A DNA stretch of 64,000 bases, taken from Nautilus pompilius. Lineage: Eukaryota; Mollusca; Cephalopoda; Nautilida; Nautilidae. The notes beneath the pieces are model-generated. The model searched no databases, had not been told where the DNA came from, and was given only the letters and a program-made list of their open reading frames with translations. The stretch is from positions 1,674,001 to 1,738,000 of the forward strand of contig JACATO010000648.1 in NCBI GenBank assembly GCA_018389105.1, written 5' to 3'. Within the stretch, counting starts at the first letter, position 1, and each line of letters begins with the position of its first letter. Below, one piece after another: positions 31,890 to 61,829 of this stretch. A program made the position numbers and the translations under genes.

Positions 31890-32960
31890 CATCAATACCA
31901 TAAGCTCAGTTCTGATTACTCTACTAAAAGAAAAAAAAAAAAAATTATGTACAGTATTGGAAGCAATTATGGAAACAGAGGAAAAACTGGCCGGTGCCAT
32001 TGACAAGAGACGCAGTTGCAGAAGAAAGCCAAAACTCTCCAAAGGGTGATGTCAGGTGTTCCAAAAGTACATTCTATATTTGACAGATGATGATGAACCA
32101 GTAGAAACCTTGCAAATGAACTACTGGAAAGTAAGGGGGGGGGTGTTAACATTTTTTTGAATAACAGTAAAAGACATTAGTGAAAAGTGATTTCAATAGA
32201 TGGGAAATTACCTAAAAATCATTGACTAAAGAGAGGCAGCCAAATAAAAAGCTGAAATGAGCAGAAACGAAACACTGGGATGACCAAACCTGGAGGAAGG
32301 TGTTCTTGACAGATAAGTCTAGATTTAAACTGACTGAAGATAGTCGACAGCAGTAGGGTGGGTCAATGCAAGAAGCATGGGGCAGCATATCAACAAAAGG
32401 GTGTCAGAAATTTGCATAAAATCAAAGATACACTGGCTGCCTACAGGTACAGGCAGGTTCTTATCAATCATGCCGTTTCCCCAGGAAGACATCTCAATGA
32501 ACAGAGATTCATCTTCCAAGATGACAGTGACCCCAAGCATACAGTCAATATGGTGAAAAACTATCTGTAACGTAAAGAGCTGATATAACACACACTGAGA
32601 TGCCTTTGGCTACAAAAAAGTCCTGATATGAACATCATTAAGGCTATAAGGGGTTATATGACTACTGAAAAAGACAAATGACAACCAAACACCTTGGATG
32701 AATTGTAGAGAATGATACAGGGTACTTAGAACAACATTTGACATCATACACTGATGAGCTATAAGGGAGCATGAAAAGGTGACATACTTTATATGAAGCA
32801 AAGGGCTCACAAACTAAACCAAATAATAAACTATACAATGTATTCATTTTGTTTTTGTATATTTTCTGTAATAATGCCTTGTGTATCTATTATTTGTCTC
32901 AGCTGCTGGTTATTTGTGCATATCTTGTGTGTGTTTCTATAACTATTTGCAATATTGCAT
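31890..32960 (+). mobile_element. Tc1-like transposon, copy A
   Basis: The plus strand carries, across several frames, EKLAGAIDKRRSCRRKPKLS (linker after the first HTH), the GGSMQEAWGSI block (usual GGSVMVWGCI), and RNLHKIKDTLAAYRYRQVLI. FIFQDDSDPKHTVNMVKNYL follows at about 32508-32567, the classic segment with a catalytic Asp. It ends with a decayed PDMNIIKAI and LDEL. Copy B at 59380-61810 aligns with it along most of its length, including the 3-prime tail TTGTATATTTTCTGTAATAA and TTTGTGCATATC. The protein is broken in many places. The terminal inverted repeats are not clear and the 5-prime border is approximate. Confidence 0.75.
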
Positions 32961-57287: not shown

Positions 57288-58580
57288 GAGGTCTGTCGAA
57301 AAAGTATCCGACTTTATTTTTTCCCGTGGGAAGTAATGACATTAGGGAGGCAAAAGTGTGCATAGTGGAGCCGGATGCCTTCATGCGCATGTGGTTTTTG
57401 GCGGGCTTGCTGGATGCCTCAGTCGCTGTCAGGTAGCCATCGTGTGAGGTGCCGTACTACTTACTCCGTGATGACGGAACATGTGGAGCAATGATCTTGC
57501 ATCAAGTTTCACCAAAAGCTTGGAGATACCCAAGCGGAAACAATTCGCAAAATCCAACAGGCTTTTGGTGATAATGCCATGGGTGTTACCCAAATAAAAG
57601 AATGGCACACCATGTTCAAAGATGGCTGGACATCGGTGGAAAGTGACCAGCGTTCTGGGAGGCCGTCAACAAGCCGCAGTGCAGTTGTTATCGAGAAAGT
57701 GCGGACCTTGATAATGGAGGATCGTCGTTTGACGGTGCAGGAAATTGGTGACGAGGTTGGGATCAGTAAAGATTCTGCACATGCAATTTTAAAGGAGGAT
57801 TTGGGCTTGCGCGGAGTGGCAGCAAAATTTGTGCCTAAGCTCTATCTCAGGAACAACAAAAACAACTTTGTCTTGAGGTTGTGCAGGACCTGCTGGATAC
57901 TGCCAACAGGGATCCTGAGTTCCAGAATACCGTGATAACTGGAGATGAGACGTGGGTGTATGGGTACGACCCAGAAACCAAAGCTCAGTCATCACAGTGG
58001 AAGCACCCAATGTCGCCAAGGTGCGGAGCAAAATCAAGGTGATGCTGACTGTTTTCTTCGACTACTGAGGCGTTGTGCATCATGAATACACACCAGAAGG
58101 ACAAACAGTTACAAAGGAGTACTATCAGGAAGTCCTCCTACGTCTTTGTAATGCAGTTTGGCGCAAGAGACCGGATCTGTGGGCCTCACAAAACTGACAG
58201 CTGCATCATGACAATGCTCCGGTTCATTCGTCGCAGCTGATCCAAGGTTTCTTGGCAAAGAAAGGCATTTTGCTCATTCGCCAGGCTCCCTACTCTCCAG
58301 ACACAGCTCCTCCTGACTTCTGGTTGTTCCCAAAAATGAAGATACCACTGAAAGGCTCCCGCTTTGAGAGCTGAGAGGACATCATGCGGAATGCGACGGG
58401 GAAGCTGAGAGCCATTCCGGAAGAAGCATTCCAGACGTGCTTTGAACAGCGGAAGGATCACTGAGCTAAGTGTGTGGAGGCACAAGGGGCCTACTTTGAA
58501 GGGGATTAGCAATTGAACCCCACCAAGTATGTAATTCTTTTTTCCCAGCCTAGGGTCGGATACTTTTTCAACAGACCTCG
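57287..58580 (+). mobile_element. mariner-family transposon, nearly full length, inactive
   Basis: 1294 bp element with 26 bp terminal inverted repeats, CGAGGTCTGTCGAAAAAGTA then TCCGAC at 57287-57312 and its complement at 58555-58580 with one mismatch, inside TA repeats (TA is the target). The transposase starts MTEHVEQ at 57471. It has recognisable N-terminal HTHs (DTQAETIRKIQQAFGDNAMG; DRRLTVQEIGDEVGISKDSA) and the catalytic triad segments TGDETWVYGYDPETK, TVFFDY and LHHDNAPVH. The C-terminus reads RQAPYSPDTAPPDFWLFPKM, as in DD34D mariners. It cannot be functional. A TGA follows MTEHVEQ, a frame change lies near 57840 and a small deletion with a frame change near 58015. TGA or TAG codons also occur at the DY of TVFFDY and near 58195, 58371 and 58461. 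Confidence 0.95.
57471..58509 (+). pseudogene. mariner transposase pseudogene
   Basis: Transposase gene of the mariner at 57287-58580. The product would bind the terminal repeats through two helix-turn-helix motifs and cut and paste the element at TA sites using a DD34D triad. All three acidic residues are still encoded, but in different frames and with several nonsense codons between them. The longest surviving piece is 57579-57935 (MGVTQIKEWHTMFKDGWTSV onward). Full-length relatives have about 340-345 codons and end near AKCVEAQGAYFEGD, which is still legible at 58465-58506. The family is recognised from its widespread animal relatives. Confidence 0.9.
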
Positions 58581-59070: not shown

Positions 59071-59784
59071 TTGAAAATAATTATGGAAAAATAATAAAAA
59101 CTGGGTATAAAATGCAAATAACAAGTGATAGAATCACATTACAAATGTAAAAATGAAATACTTTAGAGTACAGTTATATGTTGATATAGTATGCTGTACC
59201 TGGTTGTCATGCATGAAATCAGAATGTGCCATATACCTGCAGAAGGACTATAACAGTGCAGGCACTGATATCATTGAAGCGTGATATATGTATGATGAAT
59301 ACTATGACACCTAGAAAAAAAAACCATACGGCAAGCATATAGAAATCAAAGTCTTAGCTAGTGACGGCTGCTACTCCATATACCAAATTTCACCCCAACT
59401 TCATATTTCAGGAGGAGCTATATTCAAAACTCTTAGAGAAAGATACACAAAATTGGTATTGCTGATAATAAACAGAATTGAAGAGGAAAGCTCAAACTCT
59501 CCAAAAGTAATGTCAAGAACCCCATACCTACATGATATATGACAAGACAGTAGAGACAGATCTTGCAAATGACCTAGCTGAAAGCAGGGATGTTAATGTC
59601 TCTTTAAGAAAAGTAAAATATGCATTGGCATGAAGTGATCTTGTAGCTGCCTGAAAAACTTTGCTAAGGAAAGACAACCAAATGGCATGGCTGAGATGGG
59701 CAGCAGAAATAAAACAGTAAGATGACGAAAGCGCTTTTTGAAGATGACTCCAAGTCTGAACTGTTTATTTACATTGGACAACGA

Positions 59785-61207
59785 AATGAAACTTTTTGTC
59801 TGCCATCGAGCAAAATGTGGGTGATCTTAGCTAAATTTTTTGTTATGATTTTAAATCTGAAGTTAGAAATTGGCTAGGACGTCAGGTTTTTGAGATATGC
59901 ATAAGGAGGAATTTCACCACTAACGCTACATTATGACTTATGTTATATGAACTATATAGAGCTTGAACAACAATATTTGGTATTCAAATGTTTCATGTTA
60001 AACATATTTGCCATGATCAGACAACAGATGCACCAGAAAGACTGATAAAAGCAGAATGGAAGATATGGAACACATTTAACTTACATAGTAGGTATATACC
60101 AAATGTTAAAAAATGTTTCAGACACTTGTTCTTGCGCTTATGCGAGGTATCCAGTCTCCCTTCGGAGGAACCAACAGTAATCACCCATCCTGTTTGGACT
60201 GAATTTGCCCTGATATCTACTTTGCATCACCTTTATGTCTTGGTGGAACCTTTCACCATGCTCATCACTGACAACCCATAGATTGGTTGGAAAAAAATTA
60301 AGATGTGAATGCAGAAAATGCATCTTTAGAGACATCCTGGCCCCCATTAGCTGATACGCCATTAGCATGTTTTCCACATAGTCAGCATAGTGCTCAGCTC
60401 TATATTTGCCAAGAGAGTTCTTTACAATTAAAATAAATGCTTCCCATGCTGCAGACTCCAGTGGGTTCAGCTTATTTTTTGAACCCATCATCACGCATGA
60501 GTTCATCAAATTTCAGGCCCCACAAAAATTTCTTCTTTGAGTGTAGCTTCACTTTTGTCAGCACCAAACTTCTCTCTTAGGTACTTGAAGCCATCACCAT
60601 CTTTATCCATGTCTTTGACAAATTTTTTCATAGGCCAAGTTTGATATGAAGTGGCAGAAGGTAGACATTCTGAGGGTCTACCAATGGTATATGTAGCACA
60701 TTGTACCTGCCAACTATAGGTTCCTGTCGCATAGGCCAGTCTTTTCAAGTGTAATGGTTGGCATCATCACGGCTATTCCAAAGACACGTGTTTTGTGTAC
60801 CGTAACTGCAATCTGAGGAAGAGCAAAATAACTTTGAGATCACCACAAATTTTCCATTTATGATCCGAATAACTTGTCACTTTATAAAGGAGTTCCATCG
60901 ACTCATATGTCTCTTTCAAGCCAAATGCATGAGCTATAGGAACCAAAGGTTTTTGGTTATCATGATGTAACAGCACATCTTTAAGGCTTAGTTTCATATA
61001 GTCTATGAATAACCTCCATTCATCAGTCACATGCCATAACTGAAAAATGTGATATCCTAGAGCATAGCAGTTTTCAGATTTGAAATCAGCATGTGGAATA
61101 CAAAGTGAGCGTGATAGGGTTCCGGTGGAAAAATCATTGTTGTCCAGTGTAATAATCAACAACATTTTACTCAAAGGAAGATGGGAGAGTTGTATAATAG
61201 TTAGCTG
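59785..61207 (-). mobile_element. Insert of unknown mobile class inside Tc1 copy B
   Basis: This segment interrupts the alignment of Tc1 copies A and B. The two edges carry similar words, ACATTGGACAACGA at 59771-59784 and ACAATAGCTACAA at 61208-61220. Both correspond to the same short stretch of the Tc1 sequence, so they may be a decayed target-site duplication. No terminal inverted repeats or poly-A were recognised. The insert holds the protein remnant listed separately. The class of element that moved is unknown. Confidence 0.5.
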
Positions 61208-61228
61208 ACAATAGCTACAATAAATCAT
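60138..61228 (-). pseudogene. Remnant of a widely amplified uncharacterised protein family
   Basis: Three minus-strand pieces follow each other in the order known for this family. The first has VTDEWRLFIDYMKLSLKDVL (usual DTEEWRLFIDSSKRSLKxVL) and a later KWKICGDLKV. The second has MKKFVKDMDKDGDGFKYLRE then KFGADKSEATLKEEIFVGPE. The third has LNPLESAAWEAFILIVKNSL, MLMAYQLMGARMSLKMHFLH, SDEHGERFHQDIK and RYQGKFSPNRMGDYCWFLRR. The family occurs in many copies in arthropod, cnidarian and molluscan genomes, and its function is unknown as far as I know. This copy is broken between the pieces. Confidence 0.7.
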
Positions 61229-61829
61229 AGGGTTGGATCAATACAAGAGTTGGCCTGTATATCAACCAAGAGTGTTAGAGATTTACATAAAATCGAAAGT
61301 ATACTGACTGCCTACAGGTACAGGCAGGTTTTCAAACCTCATCTATTCCCTTAAGACAACATCTCATTGGGTAGGGATTCATCTTCCAACATGACAATAA
61401 CCCCAGGCATGCAGCCAATGTGGTGAAAAACTATCTGTATCATAAAAAGGCTGATAGATCATTTACCAAGATGCCTTGGCCTGCACAAATTCTTGATATG
61501 AACATCATTGAGGCTATATGGGATTATATGGCTACTGACTAAGAAAGTCAAACAGTAACCAAACACCTTGGATGAATTGTGGAAAGTGCAACAGGATATT
61601 TGGAACAACATTCCAGTCATACATTGATAACCTGTATGGGAAAATGAAAACAAGGTGTCATGCTCTGTTAAAGCAAATGGCTCAAATACAAATACACTGT
61701 ACAACATATCTTTTTGTATATTTTCTGTAATAATACATGGTGTATTTATTATATACGTCTCTCAGTAGCAATTCCTCAAAATTTGTGCATATCCTGTGCC
61801 TTTCCATAATTAACTCTACTGGAACACAT

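Follow-up and report, generated by a model that had tools for sequence, protein, structure and literature searches.

The DEHGERFHQDI protein family is widespread in animals, and a locus of Nautilus pompilius raises the question of how its copies multiply. Within the window (the whole stretch of 64,000 bp that was analysed, positions 1,674,001 to 1,738,000 of contig JACATO010000648.1), a Tc1-like element is interrupted by an insert bearing, on the minus strand, a broken member of this family. The original prediction took the insert for a new mobile element, with an uncharacterised protein whose means of spread was undescribed. Element boundaries of the sort it sought are present, but they point to a transposon of a known kind. 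Very probably, the insert belongs to the Chapaev3-type elements (CMC superfamily) as a non-autonomous member with an internal deletion, and the DEHGERFHQDI protein is the transposase of that transposon. It looks like Chapaev3 by description, that is by its ends, target site, motifs and lengths, rather than by alignment to a named Chapaev3 transposase. The features of the locus are as follows.

59772..61149, minus strand (transposase sense): short non-autonomous element, very probably of Chapaev3 type, 1378 bp, with ends as in 17 of 20 flank-aligned copies
59769..59771, no strand: left 3-bp target-site duplication TTA, differing from its partner at one base
61150..61152, no strand: right 3-bp target-site duplication TAA, from the location of the terminal inverted repeats (TIRs) and the empty-site alignment
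59772..59784, no strand: 13-bp TIR CATTGGACAACGA (family form CACTGGACAACAA), from the copy alignment
61137..61149, no strand: 13-bp TIR TTGTTGTCCAGTG, from the copy alignment
60084..61039, minus strand: broken remnant of the probable transposase in three frames (61039-60509, 60786-60463 and 60485-60084), from tblastn with the L038 and L060 proteins
60234..60266, minus strand: DEHGERFHQDI motif, whose GERF supplies the putative catalytic glutamate, its E (L061 spacing)
60303..60320, minus strand: H(4)H motif, HFLHSH (HFLxSH in L061, L062, L063 and L064)
59413..59768, plus strand: left part of the host Tc1-like element, aligned extent (68% to L016; to the sister by MAFFT)
61153..61798, plus strand: right part of the host Tc1-like element, aligned extent in the three-copy alignment
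31890..32930, plus strand: sister Tc1-like copy without the insert (extent as originally predicted; 32354-32929 aligned by blastn), without a partner of 61167-61229

Boundaries of the insert

The predicted insertion into a Tc1-like element is real: three Tc1-like copies (the interrupted one, its sister in the window and a third at L016:4307-5134) align gaplessly across the junction (59750-61166) after removal of one 3-bp flank. The broken protein was also correctly placed on the minus strand inside the insert, where tblastn finds it in pieces in three frames, without the N-terminal part. The edges given for the insert, 59784 and 61208 (about 1.42 kb), are wrong, however. Locating the TIR pair and its 3-bp flanks gives an element of 1378 bp at 59772-61149, flanked by TTA and TAA, and the similar words noted at the earlier edges are not the target duplication.

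Searching the genome (728 Mb, 2558 contigs) with the insert as first delimited gave 942 first-look DNA candidates, a figure that is not a copy number. Forty were scored and 40 matched, the window included (46 match rows), which is not chance. Among these 40, 28 of the 39 places outside the window span the query from base 4 or earlier to base 1364-1388, and none extends to base 1425; the left edge first given was thus nearly correct, and the right one had been set too far outward. The sister copy, proposed as the empty site, serves that purpose in so far as it aligns across the insertion point, but it has itself lost the partner of 61167-61229, and this loss is what misplaced the right edge. 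Positions 61153-61166 have partners in both the sister and L016, and L016 supplies them for all of 61153-61229 except 61224-61226. Positions 61153-61208 therefore belong to the host element and not to the insert.

Tc1/mariner elements duplicate TA and carry a DDE_3 domain. The host element looks Tc1-like, with an HMM label that is weak (DDE_3, E 0.044, under the cut-off), whereas the insert is unrelated to Tc1/mariner. The blastn match between the two Tc1-like copies of the window is confined to the right side of the insertion, where 61228-61798 matches 32354-32929 at 74%; on the other side, the flank gave no match to the sister at E<=1e-4 and was aligned by MAFFT only. L016 aligns with both sides of the host element at 67-68%. 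The target triplet is not TWA in either Tc1-like sister, both of which are much diverged. Some 260 bp separate the relative at L016:4307-5134 from a further copy of the short element. Elsewhere in the window, a 146-codon open frame on the plus strand (57495-57935) resembles a mariner/Mos1 transposase at its N-terminus (HTH_48, E 2.1e-4, narrowly under the cut-off).

Ends and target sites across copies

When 20 copies fetched with their flanks were matched all against all, the limits of the matches gathered at two positions in each copy. The ends CACTGGACAACAA and TTGTTGTCCAGTG, with unrelated sequence beyond, are present in 17 of the 20 when aligned; of the remaining three, L021 is without the right end, and L018 and L019 are without the left. 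For the flanks we used 50 distinct copies, 49 short (that of the window included) and the longer L060, after removing repeat fetches of a locus. Both ends were found, with at most three mismatches per end, in 44 of them. No end pair was found in L018, L021, L022, L039, L046 and L054, which were left out, and L019, with six end mismatches, is probably mis-parsed in the flank table.

The 3-bp flanks are identical in 24 of these 44 copies, against a mean of 16.1 when the right flanks are shuffled (at least 24 in 15 of 10,000 shuffles); the copies counted are best matches and hence biased to intact ends. Flanks are unequal in 20 copies, that of the window among them. TWA stands at 34 left and 33 right ends (n = 44), an A precedes the left flank in 38 of 44 and a T follows the right one in 41, and the arrangement is mostly A-[TWA]-element-[TWA]-T; L016 has the odd flank TAG, the same on both sides. 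The comparison of the insert ends with other copies, which the original prediction had proposed, thus reveals constant ends and a target duplication of a constant 3 bp, as in a mobile element. Inverted-repeat termini CAC...GTG are found in the short copies, L061 and L064. The left end of the window copy reads CAT and the ends of L062 read CCC/GTA, which we take as decay.

Relatives that encode the protein

A 90-residue protein query gave 2677 candidates, again not a copy number, and all 150 that were scored matched. Among the relatives is L060, an element of 1747 bp in which ATTA...TTAT, and so TTA on either side, surrounds CAC...GTG inverted repeats; its frame of 289 codons encodes a broken protein. 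With this frame as query, 5497 candidates were obtained (likewise not copies) and 135 were scored; 20 of these fall within frames 500 or more codons long, uninterrupted by a stop over the matched part, and are 44-48% identical to L060. These long frames suggest that the genome holds several other, perhaps recently active, families, and they are possible sources of the enzyme; a frame can be open without the gene being intact, as in L064, one of the 20, which is decayed.

L061 is a complete element, reading ATTA, CACTGGTCAACAA, then at the far end of 2389 bp in all TTGTTGACCAGTG and TTAT. Its open frame has 594 codons, 554 from the first M, and it otherwise holds only an overlapping 120-codon frame on the minus strand. 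Since like ends, flanks of ATTA/TTAT and a frame of 554 codons occur together in this complete element, a transposase is the most likely identity of the DEHGERFHQDI protein, and copies of it should therefore be masked as transposons and not counted as genes. L064 (2261 bp) likewise has ATTA/TTAT around CACAGTACAACAA/TTGTTTGACAGTG, but the protein it encodes is broken. In L063 only one such end is present, the second not having been found, and L062 (1748 bp) has decayed ends. Identity to L061 is 49% for L063 and 45% for L064; for L062 and L060, which belong to the same family as the window copy, it is 45% and 46%. The N-terminal domain present in L061 is missing from L060 and L062. The N-termini of L061, L063 and L064 are Cys-rich and resemble zf-AD, under the cut-off in all three (best E 0.027), and may be a DNA-binding domain.

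Were the protein instead a captured host gene, carried about by an unseen enzyme, one could understand why no HMM calls it a transposase above cut-off and why a short subfamily lacking coding capacity seems to have been mobile. Such a passenger would not account for the motif order kept in L063, L064, L062 and L060, nor for the like ends of L060, L061 and L064 (one end found in L063, decayed ends in L062), and we consider this explanation highly improbable.

Motifs of the probable transposase

Counted from the first M, the motifs of L061 follow the order D254, D308, C327/C330, L375-H376, H485/H490 and E507. D254, C327, C330, L375, H376, H485 and H490 are invariant in L061, L063 and L064; D308 is not, being lost in L064, which also breaks off before GERF. 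GERF is kept in all four proteins that reach it (alignment A4), and in alignments A4 and A5 the motifs C(2)C, LH and H(4)H read CFLC, PPLHIK and HFLxSH, with the H(4)H of L038 in decayed form. This is the D-D-E arrangement of CMC transposases, with C(2)C and H(3-4)H between the second D and the last E; the acids named here are the putative catalytic ones, and E507 would be the catalytic glutamate. We had also considered H-GERF-H, within DEHGERFHQDI itself, as the H(4)H and dropped this reading: L063 has Q at the first H, and HFLxSH is conserved. Given a CMC-type motif order and a complete element with like ends that encodes the protein, the view that the protein is uncharacterised and its spread undescribed is not supported.

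PIF/Harbinger elements also make TWA duplications, and the 3-bp TWA duplication seen here would fit one that carries the DEHGERFHQDI gene as a passenger. The ends CAC...GTG speak against this, as does L061, where the one long frame has the CMC motifs and is accompanied by nothing but the short overlapping frame on the other strand. Among the element proteins there is also no Pfam match to DDE_Tnp_4, which we take to be the model of the Harbinger transposase, and a PIF/Harbinger origin seems to us barely credible.

A short non-autonomous subfamily

The 42 short copies compared are 1296-1400 bp long, with a mean pairwise K2P distance of 0.096 (0.104 between the window copy and the others). Terminal branches make up 87% of the length of their tree, which fits a burst from a single source. 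L059 and the window copy, the two in which the junction was mapped, are without some 410 bp of L060 at the same place, and the like length of the remaining short copies suggests that they have this deletion in common. At one codon, 38 of the 42 read TAG, two TAT, one TAA, and the window copy CAG. Most likely, the short elements no longer functioned as genes at the time of their multiplication, and transposase made elsewhere moved them. Since the subfamily has TAG at this codon in 38 of 42 copies, the window copy, too, was probably mobilised in trans.

Database searches

Pfam (in the copy searched), NCBIfam, PHROGs and PDB gave nothing above cut-off for the protein family; its copies can be recognised by the ends, the target site and the motifs described above. 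In PDB, one protein search returned eight chance-level matches (E 0.15 or worse) and the others none, and no chain named RAG1 or Transib was among them. No relative, named or not, was confirmed in IMG/VR or in prokaryote contigs, and the DEHGERFHQDI motif strings are absent from the paper texts searched. Matches of L060 to Fic_N (E 0.003, under the cut-off), of L059 to RNase H (E 0.05 and 0.18) and a ZSWIM RNase H-like match (E 0.088) were discarded as evidence. A bacterial promoter scan of the region, which is meaningless here, gave 6 sites against 5.2 expected.

DUF1280 (PF06918) is described as comprising putative Chapaev transposases in PMC3985635. L061 and its relatives have no match to it at E<=10, nor any Pfam match to Transposase_21 (PF02992); a PF06918 search of the nautilus genome itself found nothing, but carries little weight, as its control likewise found nothing in 14 genomes.

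The missing matches to both the Chapaev (PF06918) and the CACTA (PF02992) model would suit a CMC-type lineage that is not Chapaev3 proper but a separate branch with its target site, ends and zinc-binding motifs, the more so as named Chapaev3 proteins were compared by description only. The DEHGERFHQDI proteins would then be a CMC lineage of their own outside named Chapaev3, having no Pfam model and spread in animals unrecognised as a transposase. TWA between A and T, the CAC/GTG ends and the lengths of element and protein all match Chapaev3 as portrayed in PMC4079192, and we regard a separate branch as unlikely.

Proposed mechanism

Based on the above data, we propose that the DEHGERFHQDI family multiplies, most likely, by ordinary cut-and-paste transposition. 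Full-length transposase from other copies would bind the inverted repeats, the short element would be cut out by a DDE/RNase H-like reaction, and the excised element would insert at A-TWA-T sites; one such event would have put the window copy inside the older Tc1-like element. L061, as a complete element with an open frame in the same genome, makes this activity testable.

Comparison with known transposons

According to PMC4079192, members of the Chapaev3 group end in CAC/GTG, duplicate TWA between A and T, and encode the motifs C(2)C, LH and H(4)H. The present family shares with this published group the CAC...GTG ends and TWA between A and T, and this match very probably makes the insert a member of a described kind and not the new mobile element first supposed. 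It also shares C(2)C/LH/H(4)H, by motif name and order and not by printed letters (same source). In size it resembles Garfield_BM of the silkworm, with about 2.3 kb and about 555 aa against 2289 bp and a transposase of 556 aa, and it has deletion-derivative subfamilies too. Garfield and Merrow are described with two exons, whereas L061 reads as a single one, like most other Chapaev3 elements (PMC4079192).

More widely, CACTA/EnSpm, Transib and RAG1 (the CMC/CMCT clade) also have C(2)C and H(3-4)H between the second D and the last E, and most have CA...TG ends, as here (PMC12730594); unlike CACTA/EnSpm, the present family lacks a Transposase_21 match. The corresponding RAG1 residues are D600, D708, C727, C730, H937, H942 and E962. 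The spacings D708-C727 (19), C727-C730 (3) and H937-H942 (5) are the same in L061, H942-E962 is 20 against 17, and D600-D708 (108) and D708-E962 (254) are longer than the 54 and 199 of L061 (PMC4914335).

GarfieldN1_BM and ConanN1_AC are internal deletion derivatives that form subfamilies of many copies, as here (PMC4079192). Unlike these two, the short subfamily of the nautilus retains that part of the transposase gene which encodes the catalytic region, and the stop in it dates back to the founder.
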